From Hymenobacter sp. BRD128 (lineage in GTDB: Bacteria > Bacteroidota > Bacteroidia > Cytophagales > Hymenobacteraceae), in NCBI RefSeq assembly GCF_013256625.1, contig NZ_CP053908.1, forward strand, positions 1,178,001 through 1,242,000: a stretch of 64,000 nucleotides of DNA, in the 5' to 3' direction. The first letter of the stretch is position 1. Each line of letters opens with the position of its first letter. Under the pieces are notes generated by a model. It did no database searches, was not told the DNA's origin, and was given only the letters and a program-made list of their open reading frames with translations. The position numbers and the translations under genes are program-made. Of this stretch, positions 22,927-42,259 are shown piece by piece.

Positions 22927-24300
<1,374 letters not shown>

Positions 24301-24303
24301 ACC

Positions 24304-24615
24304 CTAGCGGCGCGTGGCGGGCATTGGCAAATCGCCGTTGAGCTCGCCGTGGGCGGCCCAGCGGTCGTAGGCCGCCACCGAGAGGTGCTCGGCCATGAAG
24401 GGGCGCATGGCGTAGCCCCGGCATTCGAGGCAGTAGCGCAGAAAATCGGGCTCCGACTGGCTAGTGGTGAAGCCGCGGGCCAGCACGTCGGCCTGGCGGG
24501 CGGCGGGCAAGGTGCCCAGCCAGTCGTAGAAGTCGGTGGCCGTGAGGGGAAAGTCGCTGGTTTGAGCGTAATATGCCTGGGCGGCGTGGGTTATTTCGGT
24601 GCACAAATCGGACAT
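24304..24615 (-). CDS. Small protein of unknown function (103 aa)
   Basis: A short soluble protein (MSDLCTEITHAAQAYYAQ) with a helical look and Cys residues in YCLECRGY. Its stop codon lies three bases from the stop of the convergent sigma-54 activator, so the two transcripts must overlap or end very close together. I do not recognise the family. Its reading frame keeps the GC-rich third positions of real genes, which supports coding. Confidence 0.55.
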   Translation of the reverse strand: MSDLCTEITHAAQAYYAQTSDFPLTATDFYDWLGTLPAARQADVLARGFTTSQSEPDFLRYCLECRGYAMRPFMAEHLSVAAYDRWAAHGELNGDLPMPATRR

Positions 24616-24728
24616 AAGACAAACGCCCCGGCTAGGGTAGGGGCCGCGCGCACCCCTGCCAACGCGAGGCCAATCGCCTTAAAACCCGCCGGACAGCCCG
24701 CCAGCGGCCTTTGGTGGCCGGCGCCACC

Positions 24729-24763
24729 CTAGCACTTTGCACAAGGCCCTAGCAAAACGCTAG
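24729..24763. promoter_or_regulatory. Candidate activator-binding inverted repeat, distal copy
   Basis: CTAGCACTTTGC, an 11-base spacer, then GCAAAACGCTAG. The arms are complementary with two mismatches. The same layout recurs at 25056-25091. It could be an upstream activator site; a role is inferred from layout only. Confidence 0.45.
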
Positions 24764-25055
24764 GCCCGGCTGGGCCGCCGGCATAAGCATTGCCAAAGCT
24801 AAGCGCCTGTTCAAAAAGATTTTGGGGAAGATGCGACGCCGGCCTAAGCGCCTTGGTACCGGGCTTGCTGCCGCCGGGGCTAGCCAGCTGCTGGCCGCTA
24901 CTTAATCCCTACGCCTACGACTCCCCGCGAAACGGCCGACCTGCTCACGGCCGAATTTCCGGAGCTGGCCGCCAACCTGCATTCGCCTATCGCGCTGCAC
25001 GCGGGCTGCTGCCCGCCGCCCGCCACTAGGCTGCCCTAGCCGGCCCCGCGCCGGG

Positions 25056-25091
25056 CTAGCGTTTTGCACAGCCTCCCTAGCAAAATGCTAG
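25056..25091. promoter_or_regulatory. Candidate activator-binding inverted repeat, proximal copy
   Basis: CTAGCGTTTTGC, a 12-base spacer, then GCAAAATGCTAG. The arms are complementary with one mismatch. It lies about 100-135 bases upstream of the candidate sigma-54 promoter, a usual place for enhancer-binding sites. Confidence 0.5.
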
Positions 25092-25190
25092 TGCCCGCTC
25101 GCGGGTGGCCTGGGGCCGGGCCATGATTTTAGAAAAAATTATCCTTAGTAGCCAGCTGCTTAACTGATTTCCGGAGTCGGTTCCGCGCCC

Positions 25191-25206
25191 TGGGCCGGGG
25201 TTTGCC
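25191..25206 (+). promoter_or_regulatory. Candidate sigma-54 (-24/-12) promoter of the kdp operon
   Basis: TGGGCCGGGGTTTGCC keeps the invariant GG and GC twelve bases apart and matches TGGCACG-N4-TTGCW at 9 of 12 positions. It lies 47 bases before the first small kdp gene. GC-rich DNA makes chance matches possible; the adjacent sigma-54 activator gene raises its likelihood. Confidence 0.5.
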
Positions 25207-25252
25207 AGAAAAAGCCGGCTGTGCTTCGCCACCTCATTTTTCGCTCCCCATT

Positions 25253-25348
25253 ATGACACCCATCCTGTTGATTCCGCTGCTCTCTACGGCTGGTATTGGC
25301 TTCTTCTGGCTCTTCTACAAGTCAGTCGATTTTTTTGATAACATCTAA
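25253..25348 (+). CDS. 31-aa membrane protein at the head of the kdp operon
   Basis: A tiny open frame with ATG 25253 and stop at 25348. The product starts MTPILLIPLLSTAGIGFFWL and continues FYKSVDFFDNI: one hydrophobic helix, then an aromatic-charged tail. It precedes kdpF by 19 bases on the same strand and is far smaller than usual gene-calling limits. The helix with a short cytoplasmic-type tail resembles KdpF-like stabilising peptides, but it is a second such protein next to a recognisable KdpF. It might be an extra accessory subunit of the Kdp complex or a leader peptide. I do not know a family name for it. Confidence 0.6.
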   Translation: MTPILLIPLLSTAGIGFFWLFYKSVDFFDNI

Positions 25349-25367
25349 CCCTACCCCCGCTGCTGCC

Positions 25368-25448
25368 ATGATGCTCGCCCTGCTGCTGCTCTCCCTCGCC
25401 ACGTTTGGCTACCTCGGCTACGTGCTGCTGAAACCGGAGAAATTTTAA
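25368..25448 (+). CDS. kdpF: KdpF-like subunit of the potassium ATPase
   Basis: A 26-residue single-helix membrane peptide (MMLALLLLSLATFGYLGYVL, then LKPEKF) directly before kdpA. KdpF in E. coli is a 29-residue peptide that stabilises KdpABC; the G-Y-x-x-Y-x-L-L-x-P-E-x-F ending matches the usual pattern. ATG 25368 or the next codon could be the start. It is 53 bases from kdpA on the same strand and surely part of the operon. Confidence 0.8.
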   Translation: MMLALLLLSLATFGYLGYVLLKPEKF

Positions 25449-25501
25449 CGGGCCGGGGCCGCCGGCTAGCCGCCGGCCACCCCCGCCACTGACTTACTGC
25501 C

Positions 25502-27202
25502 ATGAACAAAGAATTACTCGGCATCGCCCTCATTTTTGGGACCACGGTGCTGCTGGCCGTGCCGCTCGGCCGCTACCTGGCTACTATTTACCGAGGCGAT
25601 AAAAGCTGGTCCGATTTCCTGGCGCCGTTCGAGCGCCTGCTCTACCGCCTCGGCGGCGTGCGCCCCGAGCGCGACATGACCTGGCAGCAGCACCTGCTGG
25701 CGCTGCTGGCCATCAATATCGTGTGGTTTGGCTGGGCCATGCTGGTGCTCTGCACCCAGGGCAGCCTACCCCTCAACCCCGACCATAACCCCAGCATGAC
25801 GCCCGACCAGGCGTTCAATACGGCCATCTCCTTCCTCGTCAACTGCAACCTGCAGCACTACTCGGGCGAGTCGGGCGCCACGTACTTCTCGCAGGCTTTC
25901 TGCTTGATGTTCTTGCAGTTCGTGACGGCCGCTACCGGCATGGCCGCCTGCGTGGTCGTCTTCAATGCCCTGCGCGAAGGGGCCAGCGAAAAGCTCGGCA
26001 ATTTCTACGTGTATTTCGTGCGCAGCATCACGCGGGTGCTGCTACCCCTCTCGCTGGCGGTGGCACTGGTGGTAGCCTTTCAGGGCACGCCCATGACGTG
26101 GCAGGCCAAGCAGCCAGTAGTGACCGTGCAGGGCGACAGCACGTTCGTGAGCCGCGGCCCGGCCGCCGCTATGATTGGTATCAAGCAAATTGGTACCAAC
26201 GGCGGTGGCTTCTTCGGCGTCAACTCGGCCCACCCGCTCGAAAACCCGACCTACCTCACCAATGCCGTGGAGAATGGTGCTATCGTGCTCATTCCCATTG
26301 CCATGGCCCTGGCCTTCGGCTACTACCTGCGCCGGCCCCGGCTGGGCTGGATGGTATTTGGGGTGATGACGGCCGGCTACCTGCTGCTGCAAGTGCCCAC
26401 CGTGTACCTCGAAATGCACGGCAACCCCGCCATCAGCCATATGGGCGTTGACCAAAGCCTGGGCTCGCTCGAAGGCAAGGAAATGCGCCTCGGCGCGCCG
26501 GCCTCGGCGCTCTGGGCCATCACCACCACCGTCACCTCCAACGGCTCGGTCAATGCCATGCACGACTCGCTCACGCCGCTTTCGGGCATGAATGCGCTGC
26601 TCGGCATGATGACCAACGCCTTCTACGGGGGGGTAGGGGTTGGCTTTCTCAACTTCTTCGTGTTCATCATCGTGGCCGTGTTTATCTCGGGGTTGATGGT
26701 GGGGCGCACGCCCGAGTTTCTGGGTAAGAAAATCGAGGCCCGCGAAATGAAAATCGCCGTGCTCATTGCCCTGCTGCACCCGCTGCTCATCCTCGCCGGC
26801 ACCGCCCTGGCGGCCCACCTCTACGCCCACAACCCCACCGAGCTGGCCGGCTGGCTGGCCAACCCTGGCTACCACGGCTTCTCAGAGATGCTCTACGAGT
26901 TCACGTCCTCGGCCGCCAACAATGGTTCGGGCTTCGAGGGCCTCGGCGACAATACGCCCTGGTGGAACATCTCGACGGGGGTAGTGCTGCTGCTGGCTCG
27001 CTACCTGCCCATCATCGGCCCGGTGGCCATCGCCGGCATCCTAGCCCGCAAAAAGTTTGTGCCCGAAAGCGCCGGCACCCTGCGCACCGACACCGGCACC
27101 TTCGGCATCATGGTCTTCTTCGTGATTTGGATTATCGCCGCGCTGGCCTTCTTCCCGGCCCTGGCGCTGGGTCCGCTGGCCGAGCATTTCACGCTGTATT
27201 AA
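25502..27202 (+). CDS. kdpA: Potassium-transporting ATPase subunit KdpA
   Basis: A 566-residue polytopic inner-membrane protein, the potassium channel-like subunit of KdpFABC. The four selectivity-filter repeats are recognisable, for example FLVNCNLQHYSGE, IGTNGGGFFGVNSAHP, TSNGSVNAMHDS and SAANNGSGFEG. It has about ten hydrophobic segments, and its length fits the family. It takes up potassium with very high affinity when the ion is scarce. It is followed by a 118-base gap that holds an imperfect inverted repeat before kdpB, which is unusual because kdpA and kdpB are normally close. Confidence 0.95.
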   Translation: MNKELLGIALIFGTTVLLAVPLGRYLATIYRGDKSWSDFLAPFERLLYRLGGVRPERDMTWQQHLLALLAINIVWFGWAMLVLCTQGSLPLNPDHNPSMTPDQAFNTAISFLVNCNLQHYSGESGATYFSQAFCLMFLQFVTAATGMAACVVVFNALREGASEKLGNFYVYFVRSITRVLLPLSLAVALVVAFQGTPMTWQAKQPVVTVQGDSTFVSRGPAAAMIGIKQIGTNGGGFFGVNSAHPLENPTYLTNAVENGAIVLIPIAMALAFGYYLRRPRLGWMVFGVMTAGYLLLQVPTVYLEMHGNPAISHMGVDQSLGSLEGKEMRLGAPASALWAITTTVTSNGSVNAMHDSLTPLSGMNALLGMMTNAFYGGVGVGFLNFFVFIIVAVFISGLMVGRTPEFLGKKIEAREMKIAVLIALLHPLLILAGTALAAHLYAHNPTELAGWLANPGYHGFSEMLYEFTSSAANNGSGFEGLGDNTPWWNISTGVVLLLARYLPIIGPVAIAGILARKKFVPESAGTLRTDTGTFGIMVFFVIWIIAALAFFPALALGPLAEHFTLY

Positions 27203-27320: not shown

Positions 27321-29369
27321 ATGGCAACCCAATCCCAATCTCTCTTTCAACCTGCGCTCGTGGCCGAGGCCACCAAGCAGGCGTTCGTGAAGCTCGACCC
27401 GCGCAGCATGTTCCGCAACCCGGTGATGTTCACCGTGGAAATCGGCACCGTGGTGATGCTGCTGGTCACCATCGGCCTGCTGCTGAAGCCCGATGCGGCG
27501 CAGGGCAGCTTCGGCTACAACTTCACGGTGTTCATCGTCCTGTTTCTCACCCTGCTGTTTGCCAATTTTGCCGAGGCCATTGCCGAGGCGCGTGGCAAGG
27601 CTCAGGCCGACTCGCTACGCAAAACCCGCCAGGACACGCCTGCCAAGGTGCGCCAGCCCGATGGCAGCTTCACGAGCGTGAGTTCGGCCCAGCTCCAGAA
27701 AGGCCAGGTATTTGTGGTCGAGGCCGGCGAAATTATCCCCACCGACGGCGAGATTATCGAGGGCCTAGCCACCATCGACGAGTCGGCCATCACCGGCGAG
27801 TCGGCCCCGGTTATCCGCGAGGCGGGCGGCGATAAATCGAGCGTGACGGGCGGCACCAAGGTGCTCTCCGACCGCATCGTGGTGCTGGTGACTACCGCCC
27901 CCGGCGAGTCGTTTCTGGATAAGATGATTGCGCTGGTCGAAGGCGCCTCACGCCAGAAAACGCCCAACGAAATCGCCCTCACTATCCTGCTGGCCGGCTT
28001 TACGCTGGTGTTCGTGATTGTGTGCGTGACCCTGCAGCCGTTTGCGGCTTATTCGAAGACGCCCATCGCGGTGGCCTCGTTCATTGCCCTGTTTGTGTGC
28101 CTGATTCCGACGACCATCGGCGGGCTGCTCTCGGCCATCGGCATTGCGGGCATGGACCGCGCATTGCGGGCCAACGTCATCACCAAGAGCGGCAAAGCCG
28201 TGGAAACGGCCGGCGACATCGACGTGCTGCTGCTCGACAAAACCGGCACCATCACCATCGGCAACCGCAAGGCGACGCACTTCTGGCCCGCGCCCGGCGT
28301 GAGCGAGCGTGAACTGGTAGAGGCCGCTACCCTCAGCTCTTTGCACGACGAAACGCCCGAGGGCAAGAGCATCGTGGAGCTGGCCCAGCAGGTGCGCCGC
28401 CAGGATGCGGCCGACCTGCAAAAGCGTGCCCAGGGCAGCGAGGCTATCAAATTCACGGCCGAAACCCGCAGCTCGGGCGTGACGCTGGCCGGCGGCGAGC
28501 GCATCCGCAAGGGCGCCTCCGACGCCATCCGCACCCTGGCCAACGCCGCCGGCCAAGAGTTTCCCAACGAAACTACCCAGCAGGTAGCCGCGGTGGCCAG
28601 CAACGGCGGCACCCCGCTGGTAGTGAGCCAAAACGACCGCATTCTGGGAGTAGTAGAGTTGCAGGACATCATCAAGCCCGGCATTCAGGAGCGCTTCGAG
28701 CGGCTGCGCAAAATGGGCATTAAAACCGTGATGGTGACTGGTGACAACCCCCTTACCGCCAAGTTTATCGCCGAAAAAGCGGGCGTCGATGACTTCATTG
28801 CCGAGGCCAAGCCCGAGGACAAGATGAAGTACATCCGCAATGAGCAGCAGGGCGGTAAGCTGGTGGCCATGATGGGCGACGGCACCAACGACGCCCCCGC
28901 CCTGGCCCAGGCCGACGTGGGGGTAGCCATGAACTCGGGCACCCAGGCCGCCAAGGAAGCCGGCAACATGGTAGACCTCGACAACGACCCCACCAAGCTC
29001 ATCGAGGTAGTCGAAATCGGCAAGCAGCTGCTCATGACCCGCGGCACGCTCACCACCTTCTCCATCGCCAACGACGTGGCCAAGTACTTCGCCATCGTGC
29101 CGGCGCTATTTATGGTGGCCATCCCGGCCCTGGGCGCCCTCAACATCATGGGCCTGAAGTCGCCGCAGTCGGCCATTCTCTCGGCCGTTATTTTCAATGC
29201 GCTCATCATCCCGGCCCTGGTGCCGCTGGCCCTGAAGGGGGTCGCCTATACGCCGGTGGGCGCCTCGGCGCTGCTGCGCCGCAACCTGCTCATCTACGGG
29301 CTAGGGGGGGTAGTGGTACCGTTCATCGGCATCAAGGTCATTGACTTGGTAGTGGGGGTTTTTCTTTAG
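27321..29369 (+). CDS. kdpB: Potassium-transporting ATPase subunit KdpB
   Basis: The 682-residue P-type ATPase that powers KdpA. It has the actuator motif TGES (in [10 protein letters not shown]), the phosphorylation motif DKTGTIT with its catalytic Asp near residue 309, and the hinge [11 protein letters not shown]. Membrane helices precede and follow these as in KdpB. ATP hydrolysis on the cytoplasmic side drives potassium import. Its last 32 bases overlap the 3' end of an oppositely oriented AT-rich gene (29338-29928) that separates it from kdpC. Confidence 0.96.
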
Positions 29370-29928
29370 GCAACTCTTTAACGCAGAAGTCTTTGGCAAT
29401 GACGTAGCCTTTGCCGATAAGAAGCAGGTGAAACACTGGAGCAATTGGTGAGACATCGCCAATTCCACCAATGCAATAAGCGGATGCACCATACTCTGCA
29501 CAAGCCACAATAACAGCTTCTGCAATCGTAACAGGCACGTCTTCCAACAGCATTCCAGACCCATCGAGCAGGTTCTTGCGAAGTATATAATCCCCTCCGA
29601 AAGCTCCTTTGCCGAATATCACGCGGTGCCAATCGCGCCAGCCCTGAATGCCAGCTTTGATTTGTTCTTTAATCCTATCTAATAAGCCTTCGGGGTCTTG
29701 CGGGCGCGAACTGATGTACACGGTAGTCGAACGGCTGTTGTAATTCAGCAGCAGCGGATGCTCCTTGTGAATGCTAAACTCTCCCCGCAGCCCCGGCTTC
29801 AGGCATGCCTCGGCCTTGTCTATAAAATCAATCTGGAACTGCTTGCCAGGCATCGATAAAACGGCAAAGGTTGTCTGCGCTACCTGCACGGTAACCACCT
29901 GGTTGTTCGGAATCGGCAGGTCAAGCAT
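29338..29928 (-). CDS. AT-rich gene of unknown function inserted antisense between kdpB and kdpC
   Basis: A 196-residue soluble protein ([20 protein letters not shown]) with no signal peptide and no recognised family. Two internal features stand out: [19 protein letters not shown], and a Gly/Ala-rich stretch around [15 protein letters not shown] is about 42-43% in counted lines against roughly 65% for kdpB and kdpC. It reads against the operon, overlaps the end of kdpB by 32 bases, and starts 31 bases from the kdpC start on the opposite strand. It looks like a recent insertion. It could disturb KdpC supply or bring a new divergent promoter. Confidence 0.7.
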
Positions 29929-29959: not shown

Positions 29960-30520
29960 ATGAAATCCCAATTCCTTCCCGCCCTGCGCCTGACCCTCGT
30001 GATGATGGTGCTGTGCTGCGGCATTTACCCGGCCCTGGTGTGGGCCGCCGCCCGGCTAGCCCCTGGCCGCGGCGAAGGCGTGCAAGTGCGCCAAAACGGC
30101 CGCCTCGTGGGCTTCGCCAACGTGGGCCAGCGCTTCGACAAGCCGCAGTATTTCAGCTCGCGGCCCTCGGCGGCCAGCTACCACGCCGACGGCTCCAGCG
30201 GCTCGAACAAAGGCCCTAGCAACCCCGACTACCTCAAGGAAGTGCAAGCCCGGCTCGATACTTTTCTAGTGAAAAACCCCGGCGTAGCGTGCGCCGACGT
30301 GCCCGCCGAATTGCTCACCGCCAGCGGCTCTGGCCTCGACCCCGACCTCTCGCCCCAGGGCGCGGCGGTGCAGGTGGCGCGCGTGGCGCGGGCCCGCGGG
30401 CTAGCCCCGGCGCAAGTGGCCAGCCTGGTGCGGCAGCACACCGAAACCAGCCTGCTCGGCCCCAGTAGGGTGAACGTGCTGCAACTCAACCTGGCGCTGG
30501 ATGCGCTGCCGGGCCGCTAA
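29960..30520 (+). CDS. kdpC: Potassium-transporting ATPase subunit KdpC
   Basis: A 186-residue membrane-anchored subunit with one N-terminal helix (LTLVMMVLCCGIYPALVW) and a periplasmic domain. The conserved FSSRPSAASYHADGSSGSN and the segment SGSGLDPDLSPQGAAVQVAR are KdpC hallmarks. It joins KdpA and KdpB and may raise ATP affinity. In this operon it is parted from kdpB by a 591-base antisense gene, so it may need its own promoter. The porin gene follows after 36 bases. Confidence 0.95.
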   Translation: MKSQFLPALRLTLVMMVLCCGIYPALVWAAARLAPGRGEGVQVRQNGRLVGFANVGQRFDKPQYFSSRPSAASYHADGSSGSNKGPSNPDYLKEVQARLDTFLVKNPGVACADVPAELLTASGSGLDPDLSPQGAAVQVARVARARGLAPAQVASLVRQHTETSLLGPSRVNVLQLNLALDALPGR

Positions 30521-33482: not shown

Positions 33483-35471
33483 ATGCTGAATTCCTCCGTC
33501 TCTACTACCGTGCCGGTTCCGGCGCCCGAGCCGAGCGGCCACGCCGCGCTGCACACCCGCATGACGGCGGCCGGCACGCTCATCGCCCTGGGCATCGTGT
33601 ACGGCGACATCGGCACCTCGCCGCTCTACACCGTGCGGGGCGTGTTTGTGGCTAGGCCCGTAACGGAGGCGGTGGTGCTCGGCACCGTGTCGGCCATTAT
33701 CTGGACGCTCACGCTGCTTACTACGCTTAAGTACGTATTTATTGCCATGCGGGCCGACAACCACGGCGAGGGCGGCATCTTGTCGCTCTACGCCCTGCTG
33801 CGGCGGCTCAAGCTGAAGTACCTCTACCTGCCGGCCATCGTGGGGGCGGCGGCGCTGCTGGCCGACAGCATCATTACGCCACCCATCTCGGTGGCCTCGG
33901 CCATTGAGGGGCTGCAAATGGTAAAGCCCGACCTCAACCCGGTGCCTATCGTATTGGTTATTCTGGTGGGGTTGTTCGCGTTTCAGCAGTTTGGCACGGC
34001 CGTCATCGGCAAGCTGTTCGGGCCCGTCATGCTCGTGTTTTTCAGCATGCTGGCCGTGCTGGGCCTCGCGCACCTGAACCAGGAATGGAGCATTTTGCGG
34101 GCCCTGAACCCGTACTACGCGCTGCACATGCTCACGGCCAACCCCGGCGCGTTCTGGCTGCTGGGCTCGATTTTTCTGTGCAGCACCGGAGCCGAGGCGC
34201 TGTACGCCGACATGGGCCACGTGGGCCGGTCGAACATCTACGTGTCGTGGACGTTCGTCAAAATCTGCCTGGTGCTCAACTACCTGGGCCAGGGCGCGTG
34301 GCTGCTTCAGCACCTGGGCCGGCCGCTGGGCGAGCGCAACCTGTTTTTTGAGATGATACCGGGCTGGGGTTTGCTGCCGGCCATCGGGCTGTGCACGCTG
34401 GCCACCATTATTGCCTCGCAGGCGCTGATTTCGGGCTCGTACACGCTCATTATCGAGGCGATGCGGCTCAACTTCTGGCCCAAGGTGAAAGTGCTGTATC
34501 CGACCGATTTGCGCGGGCAGGCCTACGTGCCCTCGCTCAACTGGCTGCTGTGCGCCGGCTGCGTGGGCGTGGTGCTCTACTTCCGCGAAAGCAGCCGCAT
34601 GGAGGCCGCCTTCGGCCTGGCCGTGACCGTGACTATGCTCATGACCACCATTTTACTGGCCTACTACCTGCGCCTGCGCCGCGCCGGGGCTTTTTGGATT
34701 GGGCTGCTGCTGGTGGTGTATTTCACGGTGGAGGGCTCGTTTCTGATTGCCAACCTGCGCAAGTTTACCCAGGGTGGTTGGCTAAGCGTGCTGCTGGGAG
34801 CTATCCTGCTGCTGGTAATGACGAGCTGGATTCAGGGGCGGCGTCTGCGCCGGGAGCTGGCCCGGTACGTGCCGCTAGCCGACTGGCTACCCCTGCTCAA
34901 GGAGCTGCACCGCGATGAGTCGGTGCCCAAGTTTGCCACTCACCTCGTCTACCTCACCGACTCAGCCAACCCTAGGCTGGTAGAAAGTGCCATCACGCAC
35001 AGCATTTTCCAGAAGAGCCCGAAGCGGGCGGACGTGTACTACCTGATTCACGTGGTGACGACCGACGAGCCCTACACGCGCACCTACCACGTCGAGACGC
35101 TGCTGCCCGACGACTTGGTGCGCATCGAGTTTCACCTGGGCTTCCGGGTGGACCACGCCATCAACTACATGTTCCGGCAGGTGGTGACGGACTTGGTCAA
35201 GAACAAGGAAATCGACATCACCTCGCGCTACCACTCGCTGCGCGAACAGGATGTGGTGGGCGATTTCCAGTTCGTGATTCTGAACCGCACGCTGCCCTAC
35301 GCGCAGTCGCTGAGCAGCTGGCAGCGGCTGGTGGCGCGCCTGGCGGGGGTGCTGCGCTGGCTCGGGGCTAGCCAGCAGGAAAGCTTCGGGCTCGACAACT
35401 CCTCGCTCACCATCGAAAACATTCCCCTGCTCACCCCCGAGCGCCCCGAATTACATCTTAGCAGAAAATGA
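33483..35471 (+). CDS. kup: Kup family potassium transporter, first copy
   Basis: A 662-residue inner-membrane potassium/proton symporter. The N-terminal IALGIVYGDIGTSPLYT is the Kup signature, followed by about twelve helices and a cytoplasmic C-terminal domain of some 200 residues. Kup works as a moderate-affinity uptake system, mostly at low pH or under osmotic stress. A second, closely related copy follows immediately. The two share a 371-base identical block in the C-terminal region (35010-35380), a sign of recent gene conversion or duplication. Confidence 0.94.
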   Translation: MLNSSVSTTVPVPAPEPSGHAALHTRMTAAGTLIALGIVYGDIGTSPLYTVRGVFVARPVTEAVVLGTVSAIIWTLTLLTTLKYVFIAMRADNHGEGGILSLYALLRRLKLKYLYLPAIVGAAALLADSIITPPISVASAIEGLQMVKPDLNPVPIVLVILVGLFAFQQFGTAVIGKLFGPVMLVFFSMLAVLGLAHLNQEWSILRALNPYYALHMLTANPGAFWLLGSIFLCSTGAEALYADMGHVGRSNIYVSWTFVKICLVLNYLGQGAWLLQHLGRPLGERNLFFEMIPGWGLLPAIGLCTLATIIASQALISGSYTLIIEAMRLNFWPKVKVLYPTDLRGQAYVPSLNWLLCAGCVGVVLYFRESSRMEAAFGLAVTVTMLMTTILLAYYLRLRRAGAFWIGLLLVVYFTVEGSFLIANLRKFTQGGWLSVLLGAILLLVMTSWIQGRRLRRELARYVPLADWLPLLKELHRDESVPKFATHLVYLTDSANPRLVESAITHSIFQKSPKRADVYYLIHVVTTDEPYTRTYHVETLLPDDLVRIEFHLGFRVDHAINYMFRQVVTDLVKNKEIDITSRYHSLREQDVVGDFQFVILNRTLPYAQSLSSWQRLVARLAGVLRWLGASQQESFGLDNSSLTIENIPLLTPERPELHLSRK

Positions 35472-35639
35472 ACGACTTATGAAAAGAGTAGCAGTCGGTG
35501 GTTACCCGCGCCCGGGACGGCACAGGTAGCCGGCCCCCGCCGGCCGGTGGCGGCCTTTCCGCCGTCAACCTCCGCCGGTGAGGTCCGTAGGAAGCCCGGC
35601 CGGCCAGTGCCGGACTTCCACCGACGAACGACGCTTACC
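35472..35639 (+). promoter_or_regulatory. GC-rich structured leader before the second kup
   Basis: 168 bases with several potential hairpins (GGCGG/CCGCC; CCTC/GAGG; GCCGG/CCGGC) and a loose tandem repeat of about 55 bases. Complementary GTCCG/CGGAC and GGAAG/CTTCC are interleaved, so a pseudoknot is possible. It matches no riboswitch class I know. Confidence 0.3.
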
Positions 35640-37622
35640 ATGCAAACTTCTCCTCCCGCCGCCCCGCTAACCCCCGCCGAGGCCGGCGGCCACGAGGCCC
35701 TGAAAGCCGGGGCCTCGGCGGCCGGCACGCTCATCGCCCTGGGCATCGTGTACGGCGACATCGGCACCTCGCCGCTCTACACCGTGCGGGGCGTGTTTGA
35801 GGGCCGGCCCGTGACCGAAGACGTGGTGCTCGGCACCGTGTCGGCCATTATCTGGACGCTTACCTTACTGACAACCATCAAGTACGTGCTCATCGCCATG
35901 CGGGCCGACAACAATGGCGAGGGCGGCATCTTGTCGCTCTACGCTCTGCTGCAACGGCTCAATTTCAAGTATCTCTACCTGCCGGCCATCGTGGGGGCGG
36001 CGGCGCTGCTGGCCGATGGGGTTATCACGCCGCCCATCTCGGTGTCGTCGGCCATTGAGGGATTGCGCATTCTGCGGCCGCACCTGGCTACGGTGCCCAT
36101 CGTGCTGGTTATTCTGGTGGGGCTGTTTGCCATTCAGCAGTTCGGCACGGCCATTATCGGCAAGCTGTTTGGGCCCGTCATGCTGGTGTTTTTCAGTATG
36201 ATAGCGGTGCTGGGCGTGCAGTTCCTGTTTCACGATTTTAGTATTTTGCGCGCCTTCAACCCGTACTACGCCCTGCACATGCTAGCCACCATTCCGGGGG
36301 GCTTCTGGCTGCTGGGCTCCATTTTTCTGTGCAGCACCGGGGCCGAGGCGCTGTACGCCGACATGGGCCACGTGGGCCGGTCAAACATCTACGTGTCGTG
36401 GACGTTCGTCAAAATCTGCCTGGTGCTCAACTACCTGGGCCAGGGCGCGTGGCTGCTCCAGCACCTAGGCCGGCCGCTCGGCGACAGCAATCCGTTCTTC
36501 GCCATGATACCGGGCTGGGGCCTGCTGCCGGCCATCGGGCTGTGCACGCTGGCCACCATTATTGCCTCGCAGGCGCTGATTTCGGGCTCGTACACGCTCA
36601 TTATCGAGGCGATGCGGCTCAACTTCTGGCCCAAGGTGAAAGTGCTGTATCCGACCGATTTGCGCGGGCAGGCCTACGTGCCCTCGCTCAACTGGCTGCT
36701 GTGCGCGGGCTGCGTGGGCGTGGTGCTGCACTTCCGCGAAAGCTCGAATATGGAGGCGGCCTATGGCCTGGCCATCACCTTCACCATGCTCATGACGACG
36801 GTGCTGCTGGCCTATTTTCTGCACCTGCGCCGGGTGAGCCCGGTCTGGATTGGGCTGCTGCTGCTCACGTATTTCACGGTGGAAGGCTCGTTTCTGATTG
36901 CCAACCTGCGCAAGTTTCCCGAGGGCGGCTACGTGAGCGTGCTCATGAGCCTGGTGCTGCTGGCCGTGATGGTGAGCTGGATTCAGGGCCAGCGCCTGCG
37001 CGAAGGCTTTATCAAATACGTGCCGCTGGCTGACTGGCTGCCGCTGCTCAAGGAGCTGAGCCGCGATGAGTCGGTGCCCAAGTTTGCCACCCACCTCGTC
37101 TACCTCACCGACTCGATGGACCCTAGCCAGATTGAGCGGGGCATCACGCACAGCATCTTTCAGAAGAGCCCGAAGCGGGCGGACGTGTACTACCTGATTC
37201 ACGTGGTGACGACCGACGAGCCCTACACGCGCACCTACCACGTCGAGACGCTGCTGCCCGACGACTTGGTGCGCATCGAGTTTCACCTGGGCTTCCGGGT
37301 GGACCACGCCATCAACTACATGTTCCGGCAGGTGGTGACGGACTTGGTCAAGAACAAGGAAATCGACATCACCTCGCGCTACCACTCGCTGCGCGAACAG
37401 GATGTGGTGGGCGATTTCCAGTTCGTGATTCTGAACCGCACGCTGCCCTACGCGCAGTCGCTGAGCAGCTGGCAGCGGCTGGTGGCGCGCCTGGCGGGGG
37501 TGCTGCGCTGGCTCGGGGCTAGCCAGCAGGAGAGCTTCGGGCTCGACAACTCCTCGCTCACCATCGAAAACATTCCCCTGCTTACTCCCGAGCGCCCCGA
37601 GCTGCACCTCACCCGCGAATAA
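35640..37622 (+). CDS. kup: Kup family potassium transporter, second copy
   Basis: A 660-residue paralogue of the preceding gene with the same IALGIVYGDIGTSPLYT signature and C-terminal domain. Start 35640 (MQTSPPAAPLTPAEAGG) is chosen over an upstream in-frame codon because the longer frame runs through the structured leader. The N-terminal halves differ by scattered substitutions, while 37161-37531 is base-identical to the first copy. Two Kup proteins side by side may differ in affinity or regulation. A hairpin (37634-37664) lies between this gene and the third porin. Confidence 0.94.
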   Translation: MQTSPPAAPLTPAEAGGHEALKAGASAAGTLIALGIVYGDIGTSPLYTVRGVFEGRPVTEDVVLGTVSAIIWTLTLLTTIKYVLIAMRADNNGEGGILSLYALLQRLNFKYLYLPAIVGAAALLADGVITPPISVSSAIEGLRILRPHLATVPIVLVILVGLFAIQQFGTAIIGKLFGPVMLVFFSMIAVLGVQFLFHDFSILRAFNPYYALHMLATIPGGFWLLGSIFLCSTGAEALYADMGHVGRSNIYVSWTFVKICLVLNYLGQGAWLLQHLGRPLGDSNPFFAMIPGWGLLPAIGLCTLATIIASQALISGSYTLIIEAMRLNFWPKVKVLYPTDLRGQAYVPSLNWLLCAGCVGVVLHFRESSNMEAAYGLAITFTMLMTTVLLAYFLHLRRVSPVWIGLLLLTYFTVEGSFLIANLRKFPEGGYVSVLMSLVLLAVMVSWIQGQRLREGFIKYVPLADWLPLLKELSRDESVPKFATHLVYLTDSMDPSQIERGITHSIFQKSPKRADVYYLIHVVTTDEPYTRTYHVETLLPDDLVRIEFHLGFRVDHAINYMFRQVVTDLVKNKEIDITSRYHSLREQDVVGDFQFVILNRTLPYAQSLSSWQRLVARLAGVLRWLGASQQESFGLDNSSLTIENIPLLTPERPELHLTRE

Positions 37623-39231: not shown

Positions 39232-40401
39232 ATGCCGACCCCCGACGATGCCCTGCGCGACCAGTCGGCCGAGCGCTTTCTGCGCCTCGTGCAGCAGAAG
39301 CGGCGCGGCACGCTTAAAGTGTACCTGGGCCTGGCCGCCGGGGTAGGGAAGACCTATCGCCTGCTGCAAGAGGCCCGCGACCTGCACCAGCACGGCGTGG
39401 ATGTGCTGCTCGGCTACGTCGAAACCCACGGCCGCGCCGACACCGTGGCCCAGCTGGCCGACGTGCCGCTGCTGGCCCGCAAGCAGGTGTTTTATAAAGG
39501 CCACGCGGTGGAGGAAATGGACCTCGACGCCATTGAGAAGCGCCGCCCGCAGGTGGTGATTGTGGATGAGCTGGCCCACTCCAACGTGCCCGGCTTGCGC
39601 AACCAGAAGCGTTGGCAGGACGTGGAGGAATTGGTGAAAAACGGCATTTCGGTGATAACGGCCGTGAACGTGCAGCACCTCGAAAGCCTGCACGACCAAG
39701 TGCTGAAAATCACTGGTACCGACGTGACCGAGCGCATTCCGGACCAGCTTCTCAGGCAGGCCGACGAGGTGGTAAACGTGGACCTGACCGTGGGTGAGCT
39801 GCGCGCCCGCCTCCAGGAAGGCAAAATCTACGACGCCGCCAAGGTGCCCACCGCGCTGGCCAATTTCTTCCAGCCCGAAAACCTGCTGCAATTGCGCCGG
39901 CTAGCCGTGCGCGAAGTAGCCCAGCTGCTGGGCCGGCAGGTCGAAACCGACGCCGGCGGCGCGCTGGCCGTGGCGCCGCAGCGCCGCAACGACGACCGCC
40001 TGCTGGCCTGCATCAACACCAACAACGAGGCCGCCAAGGAGATAATCCGCAAGACCTCGCGTTTGGCCGACCGCTTTGGCGCGGCCGCCTGGTACGTGCT
40101 CTACGTGCAGACCGGCCGCGAGAGCGCCGACCGCATCGGGCTAGCCCCGCAGCGTTATCTACTTAATAACCTCCAGCTTGCCACGGAGCTGGGCGCCCAG
40201 ATTCTGCGGGTGAAGGACGACGACATCGTGGCCGCCATTCGGCGGGTGGCGCAGGAAAAAGCGGCCACCCTGCTCGTGTGCGGCATCACCCGCGAGAAAA
40301 GCCTGTGGCAGCAGCTCAGCCGCGGCGGCGTCACGCACGACCTGCTCACGGCCGTGGCCGGCGACGGGAGCGATGTGGATGTGTATTTGGTAACGTATTG
40401 A
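39232..40401 (+). CDS. kdpD: KdpD N-terminal sensor protein without kinase domain
   Basis: A 389-residue soluble protein equal to the first part of E. coli KdpD. Residues 17-230 form the KdpD domain with Walker A GLAAGVGKTYRLL and Walker B VVIVDELAHSN. Residues about 245-389 form a universal-stress-protein-like domain, which in Gram-positive KdpD binds c-di-AMP. There are no transmembrane, HisKA or ATPase segments, so it cannot phosphorylate a regulator. Truncated KdpD proteins are known, for example in cyanobacteria. The next gene, 94 bases away, is a membrane histidine kinase that could supply the missing half. Confidence 0.88.
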   Translation: MPTPDDALRDQSAERFLRLVQQKRRGTLKVYLGLAAGVGKTYRLLQEARDLHQHGVDVLLGYVETHGRADTVAQLADVPLLARKQVFYKGHAVEEMDLDAIEKRRPQVVIVDELAHSNVPGLRNQKRWQDVEELVKNGISVITAVNVQHLESLHDQVLKITGTDVTERIPDQLLRQADEVVNVDLTVGELRARLQEGKIYDAAKVPTALANFFQPENLLQLRRLAVREVAQLLGRQVETDAGGALAVAPQRRNDDRLLACINTNNEAAKEIIRKTSRLADRFGAAAWYVLYVQTGRESADRIGLAPQRYLLNNLQLATELGAQILRVKDDDIVAAIRRVAQEKAATLLVCGITREKSLWQQLSRGGVTHDLLTAVAGDGSDVDVYLVTY

Positions 40402-40495: not shown

Positions 40496-42259
40496 ATGAC
40501 CCTCAAAACCAAGATTACCCTCGGCTTCCTGGCCATGCTGCTGCTGCTGCTCAGCATCGGCGGCTATGCGTTTTATACCGTGCGGCAGCTCGACTTGAGC
40601 TCGCGCAATATATTGAAGGCCAATTTCTATTCGATAGAATTGGGCCAGCAGATGCTGCGTGGGCTCGATGCCCTGGGGCAGGCGCCGGCTAGCCCTGCGG
40701 GCATGCGCCAGCTCAGCCAGGGCCTCACGCGGGAGGCCGGCAATATTACCGAGCCCGGCGAGCGCGAGCTCGTGGACAGCCTCACCCAGAGTCTGGCCGC
40801 CTACAATCAGGCGCTGAGCCGCAATAGCCAGGCCCTGCCCGCCGCCTGGCAGCCGCTGCGCGGCCAGACCCTGCGCATGATGGCGATGAATACCGCCGCC
40901 CTGACGCGCAAAAATGACCTGGCCGACCAGCATGCCGAGCGCGCCAACCGCAACCTCATCCTCTTCATCACCCTGGCGGTGCTGCTGGGGCTGGGCTTCG
41001 TGGCCAGCGTGCCCGAGGCGGCGGTGCAGCCCCTGCGCAAGCTCAACGCGGCGCTGGCCCACGCCACGGCGCGCAACTTCGCGGCGACCATTCCGCAGGA
41101 GAGCCAGGACGAGTTTGGACAGGTGGCGCAGTCGTTTAACCGGATGCTGAGTGAGTTGCGCGAGTTTCGCAGCTCCACGGCGGCCGAGCTGATAACGGCC
41201 CGCAACCGCGCCGCCAGCATCGTCAATACCCTGGATGAGGGTATTCTGGTGCTCGATGAAAGCCGCCACGTGCTGCTGGCTAACCCCGTGATGTGCGAGC
41301 TGCTGGGCCTGCCCCCCGCGAAGCTGGTGGGCCGCCCGGCCGCCACCGTGCGGCTCGAAAACGACCTGTTTCAGACCCTGCTCAGGCCGCTCGACGCGCC
41401 CCAGCGCGAGCAGGCGGTAGCCGAAATGCCGGTGCTCACCATCGCGCAGCGCGGCGAGGAAGCGTTTTACCGCCTCGCGGTGCAAGACCTGGTTTCCTTC
41501 AACGAGGCTACCGACAAAACGGAGTTTGTGGGCCAGGTGCTGACCCTGCGTAACGTATCCGACTTTAAAAAGCTCGACCAGGTGAAGTCGAACTTCCTGG
41601 CCACCGTGTCGCACGAGCTGAAAACGCCGCTTTCAAGCATCAATCTCAGTCTGAAGGTATTGCAGAAAGATAATCTGCCCGCCACTGAGCGCCAGGACAT
41701 CACGGTGGGCATTCAACGCGAAACCCAGCGCCTCCAGCGCCTGGTGAGCGAGCTGCTCGACGTGTCGCGCCTCGATTCGGGCCAGGGTATTCAGCTCAAC
41801 TTTGCGCCCACTCAGCTCGCCGACGTGGTGCGCTTTGCCGAGGCTACCGTGCAGGCCCAGCTGGCCCACAAGCAGCTCACGCTGCAAACCGACCTGCCCG
41901 CCGACCTGCCGCCCGCCCGCGCCGACGTGGAAAAAACGACCTGGGTGCTTATCAATTTGCTAGCAAACGCTATCCGCTACTCGCCGGCCGGTGAAGGTAT
42001 CGGCGTACGCGCCGTGGTGGCCGGCAAGTTTGTGCAGGTGACGGTGCAGGACCAGGGTCCCGGCATTGCGGCCGAGCACCACGACAGGATTTTTCAGCGC
42101 TTCGCCCAGCTGCCCGACAAGGCCGGCTACACCGGCGGCTCGGGCCTGGGGCTGAGTATTGCCCGCGAGTTTATCACCACGCAGGGCGGGCGGCTGTGGG
42201 TCGAGAGTGAGCTGGGTAGTGGCAGCGCCTTTCACTTCACGCTACCGGTGGCGGGATAA
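40496..42259 (+). CDS. Membrane histidine kinase (HAMP-PAS-HisKA-HATPase)
   Basis: A 587-residue sensor kinase. TM1 is at about 8-28, followed by an extracytoplasmic helical region (about 30-155) and TM2 (about 155-178). Then come HAMP, a PAS domain (IVNTLDEGILVLDESRHVLL), HisKA with the phosphoacceptor in ATVSHELKTPLSS, and HATPase with NLLANAIRYSP, DQGPGIA and GSGLGLSIA. No response regulator is next to it. It follows the kinase-less KdpD in the same direction. I infer that the two together replace full-length KdpD and that the regulator is the NtrC-type protein at 22927 on the other side of the island. Confidence 0.9.
   Translation: MTLKTKITLGFLAMLLLLLSIGGYAFYTVRQLDLSSRNILKANFYSIELGQQMLRGLDALGQAPASPAGMRQLSQGLTREAGNITEPGERELVDSLTQSLAAYNQALSRNSQALPAAWQPLRGQTLRMMAMNTAALTRKNDLADQHAERANRNLILFITLAVLLGLGFVASVPEAAVQPLRKLNAALAHATARNFAATIPQESQDEFGQVAQSFNRMLSELREFRSSTAAELITARNRAASIVNTLDEGILVLDESRHVLLANPVMCELLGLPPAKLVGRPAATVRLENDLFQTLLRPLDAPQREQAVAEMPVLTIAQRGEEAFYRLAVQDLVSFNEATDKTEFVGQVLTLRNVSDFKKLDQVKSNFLATVSHELKTPLSSINLSLKVLQKDNLPATERQDITVGIQRETQRLQRLVSELLDVSRLDSGQGIQLNFAPTQLADVVRFAEATVQAQLAHKQLTLQTDLPADLPPARADVEKTTWVLINLLANAIRYSPAGEGIGVRAVVAGKFVQVTVQDQGPGIAAEHHDRIFQRFAQLPDKAGYTGGSGLGLSIAREFITTQGGRLWVESELGSGSAFHFTLPVAG

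Follow-up and report, generated by a model that had tools for sequence, protein, structure and literature searches.

In E. coli, kdp is controlled by KdpE together with sigma-70. Sigma-54 promoters of the NtrC/IHF type are built from parts in a set order, with activator dyads upstream, then a bend site and then the −24/−12 promoter. KdpE has a winged-helix DNA-binding domain and binds AT-rich 6-bp direct repeats, according to one report (PMC3264566), and another places IHF sites at RpoN promoters (PMC7962754). In Desulfovibrio vulgaris Hildenborough, kdp is controlled by the GAFTGA response regulator DVU3334, and sensing and kinase functions are carried by two proteins, a K+ sensor/UspA protein and a kinase; kdp is also bound there by DVU3305 and DVU0596, and the authors reported orthologues of DVU3334 only from D. 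vulgaris Miyazaki and S. fumaroxidans (PMC3333781, PMC4641369). Within the open-access literature, a 2025 survey of sigma-54 regulons mentions neither kdp nor potassium (PMC12316311).

The stretch analysed here, a 64-kb window of the Hymenobacter sp. BRD128 genome, encodes the same pump and the same KdpD-type sensor domain as E. coli, but its activator is of the NtrC type, its sensor is split and its promoter is sigma-54-like (Table 1). An E. coli-type KdpD/KdpE pair is not present at the locus, where the KdpD sensor is without a kinase domain and the regulator adjoining kdp is of the NtrC type. This regulator combines a receiver domain, an AAA+ domain with GAFTGA and a Fis-type helix-turn-helix; as noted originally, its gene lies just before the repeats and ends about 890 nt before the kdp promoter P1. 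With the DVU3334 system the locus shares the GAFTGA regulator and the split sensor, a likeness of anatomy, whereas the DVU3334 gene lies inside the kdp operon that its product controls and the Hymenobacter regulator gene lies upstream of kdp. Sigma-54 control of kdp had been put forward as a different solution. This would hold in comparison with E. coli KdpD/KdpE but not in the sense of an unprecedented one, because an NtrC-type kdp regulator with a split KdpD has already been published in D. vulgaris. The order of parts is that of NtrC/IHF-type sigma-54 promoters. Compared with the usual promoters of this type, however, the spacing is unusually constant across the genus, dyad and terminator can coincide in part in other families, and the dyad sequence shifts with the recognition helix. 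Based on the comparison of related genomes, we estimate a probability of roughly 88% that the kdp control region is sigma-54-dependent and enhancer-driven.

Table 1 Features of the kdp control region and its partner genes in the window
Feature	Position	Strand	Remarks
NtrC-type response regulator, recognition helix AHTTLYRK	22927..24300	+	Pfam Response_reg, Sigma54_activat, HTH_8
orfm, conserved 103-aa ORF	24304..24615	-	53-83% identical in ten relatives
Sigma-54-like site ATTGGCCTCGCGTTGGCA, predicted for orfm	24657..24674	-	12.2 bits; 82 nt from distal dyad centre
Degenerate dyad CTAGCACTTTGCACA	24729..24743		20 bp from distal full dyad; paired arrangement also in relatives
Distal regulator dyad CTAGCAAAACGCTAG, putative	24749..24763		Likely common to orfm (leftwards) and DUF7674 remnant (rightwards)
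Sigma-54-like site TTGGTACCGGGCTTGCTG before DUF7674 remnant	24853..24870	+	12.1 bits; 97 nt from distal dyad
DUF7674 gene remnant	24920..25040	+	Compared by eye with L059
Degenerate dyad CTAGCGTTTTGCACA	25056..25070		21 bp upstream of proximal dyad
Proximal regulator dyad CTAGCAAAATGCTAG, putative kdp enhancer	25077..25091		Fixed spacing, cluster specificity, helix co-variation
Degenerate IHF-like bend site (A/T block and CTTAGTAGCCAG)	25131..25155	+	Conserved position; weak match in this genome
Sigma-54-like promoter P1, CTGGGCCGGGGTTTGCCA	25190..25207	+	De novo motif; top site of the window
31-aa single-membrane-span ORF MTPILLIPLLSTAGIGFFWLFYKSVDFFDNI, first gene of the kdp operon	25253..25348	+	Precedes kdpF
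kdpF	25368..25448	+	PF09604
kdpA	25502..27202	+	ORF; homologues in relatives
kdpB	27321..29369	+	ORF; homologues adjoin kdpA in relatives
kdpC	29960..30520	+	ORF; homologues in relatives
KdpD sensor and Usp domain protein without kinase domain	39232..40401	+	PF02702
Separate histidine kinase (HAMP, PAS, HisKA, HATPase)	40496..42259	+	Pfam

The −24/−12-like sequence TGGGCCGGGGTTTGCC stands at 25191-25206, as had been noted, with the TGG at 25191-25193 and with the GG (25192-25193) separated by ten bases from the GC (25204-25205), which is the −24/−12 pattern of sigma-54 promoters. The genome encodes RpoN (Sigma54_DBD match, 190 bits). Matches to the plain −24/−12 consensus are not in excess, since 105 were counted in the window at up to three mismatches and 146 were expected from shuffled sequences, so that only a comparison with relatives can set P1 apart from chance. 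kdpA was found in 44 of 121 genomes of the family and in 92 of 293 genomes of the order, and upstream DNA was compared from about 80 kdp loci. A de novo motif search in 40 kdp upstream regions recovered a motif of the type TGG-N9-TTG[GC]CA. Scored with a matrix that was built from relatives alone, without this genome, P1 came to 16.6 bits and ranked first among the sigma-54-like sites on both strands of the window, where no other site reached 14 bits. In 30 of 41 genomes GG-N10-GC is found no more than 90 nt from the small first ORF (expected 17.3 ± 2.9), and in some relatives GT replaces GC at −12. Lack of conservation of the promoter and the repeats in relatives had been named as grounds for abandoning the prediction; what was found is that a P1-like site and positioned dyads recur upstream of kdp.

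Both repeats are present at the places originally given, the distal one as CTAGCACTTTGC (24729-24740) with CTAGCGTTTTGC on the minus strand (24752-24763) and the proximal one as CTAGCGTTTTGC (25056-25067) with CTAGCATTTTGC on the minus strand (25080-25091). A 15-bp dyad, CTAGC-N5-GCTAG, preceded at 20-21 bp by a degenerate copy, describes each of them better than one long inverted repeat does. Such a degenerate second dyad is found about 20-22 bp upstream of the main dyad in the family. In the whole 4.88-Mb genome, CTAGCRTTTTGCTAG has two exact matches, both at the repeats of the kdp locus. CTAGC-N5-GCTAG itself occurs at 22 places, among which the core AAAAC or AAAAT is found only in the distal and proximal dyads of this locus. 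In the very close relatives L094 and L096 the proximal dyad has the same stem, with its inner five bases flipped (AAAAT versus ATTTT), and a similar flip of the inner bases is seen between L083 and L085.

The centre of the proximal dyad lies 106 nt from the P1 motif. Of 40 genomes in the family, 39 keep this distance at 104-108 nt, irrespective of the letters of the dyad. Further loci were found by the dyad sequence alone and searched for the promoter motif at distances of 60 to 175 nt from the dyad, and 31 of their 35 high-scoring promoter sites fell at 104-108 nt within this 115-nt range. In other families a spacing of 82-85 nt is common for the best site, with 93-97 or 105-106 nt in some cases; several of these sites have weak scores, and the spacings differ by roughly whole helical turns. 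In most genomes an IHF-like motif, an A/T block with CTGATAATCA, lies between dyad and promoter, with its centre some 40 nt ahead of the promoter motif; a palindromic motif search for the bend site gave a log-likelihood of 138, compared with a maximum of 43 in shuffles. Several copies, read by eye, match the IHF consensus WATCARNNNNTTR; the copy in this genome is degenerate. Only one gene of the HU/IHF family was found in the genome.

The placement of the dyads in 120 genomes of the genus points in the same direction. All 25 matches of GGGTCAGAATGACCC lie at the kdp or regulator cluster, as do at least 41 of the 45 matches of CTAGCRAAAYGCTAG; one dyad match (G415) was left out of the inspection, and CTACCAAAAYGGTAG had no genus-wide specificity for the cluster. 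In G048, a genome without kdp, a dyad with a promoter site at 105 nt precedes the porins of the cluster, and in G115 dyad and promoter site are placed between kdpB and kdpC. Two A-rich CTAGC dyads of genome G419 (L178, L179) have no kdp-cluster gene within about 3 kb and may mark other targets of the regulator. Some Hymenobacter genomes carry second, divergent copies of kdpA with about 49% identity (L144, L181, L182), two of which (L144, L181) adjoin further dyads.

Most relatives that have kdp carry the regulator gene upstream of it; the protein identities are 59-86% within the family and 47-56% for the remaining families of the order. Recognition helices with AHT, as in this genome, or ALT pair with the dyad arm CTAGC (one GTAGC), GTK pairs with GGGTC in 12 of 12 cases, GLT with CTACC (one TTACC), and GVA with CTATC or CTCTC within the family. 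Beyond the family, GIA pairs with CTATC or TTATC in four of four cases, and the ALT and GLT dyads are more mixed. For the comparison of helix and dyad, a tree was calculated from the regulator sequence without its helix-turn-helix domain. The GLT/CTACC combination of L066 and L074 is nested in this tree within the CTAGC group, and thus helix and dyad changed together. Within the family, three of three well-supported independent pairs agree in linking the helix residue A with the dyad base G and none disagrees, a number too small for significance. Joint change of the regulator's DNA-reading residues and the palindromes across species, as it appears from these sequences, supports a real control circuit. 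Six loci (L183, L186, L190, L192, L194, L200) encode a paralogous regulator with a GLT helix. Directly after it comes a kinase that shares 48-55% identity with the kinase described here, so that Hymenobacter has a second such system.

The proximal repeat retains the role proposed for it, lying at enhancer distance from P1, but the distal repeat is probably no second kdp enhancer. Because it lies 434 nt from P1 and has the standard spacing of 82 nt to a divergent sigma-54-like site, the distal dyad probably serves other units than kdp. A site 82-83 nt from the dyad occurs in five genomes, namely this one and L059, L060, L067 and L070; orfm itself has no family match in Pfam or NCBIfam. On the other side, the site before the DUF7674 remnant corresponds, as judged by eye, to CTGGCCCCCGCCTTGTGT in L059, which is 107 nt from the dyad of that relative. 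The gene is intact in relatives such as L059, whose protein belongs to DUF7674 (PF24722). In some relatives the DUF7674 gene is part of the kdp operon, where it follows the promoter and precedes the small ORF.

The repeats might have been explained as terminators of upstream genes, unconnected with activator binding and with a promoter site that is independent of them. Both form hairpins, with folding energies of −22.4 and −16.3 kcal/mol (z-scores −3.75 and −1.96), and in many relatives the equivalent palindrome directly follows the stop codon of the regulator gene and is itself followed by a T-run. Here, however, no T-run adjoins the repeats on either strand, and the position of the dyad is kept where the upstream gene is a different one (L072, L084) or where kdp has been lost (L162). 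A terminator has no need of a fixed distance of 104-108 nt to the promoter motif, and the dyad arms track the regulator's recognition helix; this fixed spacing and the co-variation with the helix argue for binding, and we consider a role as terminators only to be improbable. A combined role as terminator and enhancer is an attractive possibility for other families. An origin of the palindromes as a dispersed repeat element that came to lie near kdp by chance would agree with the 22 genomic places of CTAGC-N5-GCTAG, but the A-rich core is confined to two of these places, both at this locus, and A-rich dyads sit at the kdp cluster across 120 genomes, so that we attach next to no credence to it. 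The fixed spacing and the genome-wide placement overturned the terminator and dispersed-element interpretations of the repeats.

Other alternatives leave the repeats aside and concern how the operon is read. Transcription by the Bacteroidota housekeeping sigma factor from −33 TTTG and −7 TANNTTTG elements, with a KdpE-like or other regulator, would follow the precedent of KdpE and sigma-70 in E. coli. Yet the −7 motif is not enriched, occurring in one of 36 upstream regions, below the 1.7 expected by chance, and is absent from 25090-25252 before the kdp operon of this genome; moreover, the regulator adjoining kdp is of the NtrC type across the order, and sigma-54-like sites are conserved upstream of kdp. 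Such a housekeeping promoter seems to us quite unlikely, somewhat more so than the terminators discussed above. Control by a cis-acting RNA in the kdp leader could draw on the leaders before the first gene and on the hairpins in the region, but no Rfam family was matched at E ≤ 1 in 24300-25600 and the hairpins lie upstream of the predicted transcription start, which makes this explanation hardly credible. Control of kdp through sigma-54 by the neighbouring NtrC-type regulator, acting from the proximal repeat at enhancer distance as originally predicted, is well supported because the promoter site is conserved, the spacing is fixed, the dyads are tied to the cluster, and helix and dyad co-vary.

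Homologues of the 31-aa ORF were present in all 41 kdp loci of the family that were examined. It has no match in Pfam or NCBIfam and is possibly a new Kdp-associated peptide. Between kdpB and kdpC, a 196-aa ORF without a Pfam match occupies the minus strand at 29338-29928. Two tandem genes for KUP-type potassium transporters follow at 33483-37622, whose 3' halves encode nearly identical protein; this likeness suggests duplication or gene conversion. The same cluster also contains three BBP2 porin genes. The best NCBIfam match of the KdpD sensor protein is the KdpD-like non-kinase potassium sensor, with a score below the family cut-off. We infer that the separate kinase is a candidate partner of the NtrC-type regulator.

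We propose that at low K+ the KdpD sensor/Usp protein and the separate kinase would bring about phosphorylation of the regulator. The regulator would then bind the proximal dyad and its degenerate copy 21 bp upstream, as suggested by the co-variation of helix and dyad, the fixed position and the cluster specificity. From there it would contact sigma-54 polymerase at the −24/−12 site 106 nt downstream, assisted in most relatives by a bend site of the IHF/HU type between dyad and promoter, and its GAFTGA AAA+ domain would open the promoter. Transcription is predicted to start near 25217 and to proceed through the 31-aa membrane ORF, kdpF, kdpA and onwards. The distal dyad would serve two promoters, a divergent sigma-54-like one before the 103-aa gene and a relict one before the decayed DUF7674 gene. 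In other families, where a T-run often directly follows the proximal dyad, this dyad may double as the terminator of the regulator gene.

In conclusion, we think it fairly likely that in Cytophagales and beyond an NtrC-type regulator runs kdp, that the letters of its operator changed on several occasions along with two to three helix residues while the operator's position stayed fixed, and that in many genera the operator is also the terminator hairpin of the regulator gene. If this is true, these loci would provide a natural code for the specificity of an enhancer-binding protein, and an element used both as terminator and as enhancer. The paired changes of helix and operator represent a ready-made experiment in which the specificity of an NtrC-type protein shifts at fixed promoter geometry, and with promoter, operator and partner genes defined the circuit is directly testable. 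The 31-aa membrane peptide, the 103-aa protein, DUF7674 and the BBP2 porins are probable new members of the K+ response. The response to K+ starvation is predicted to be controlled via sigma-54 and not via KdpE in a large part of the Bacteroidota.
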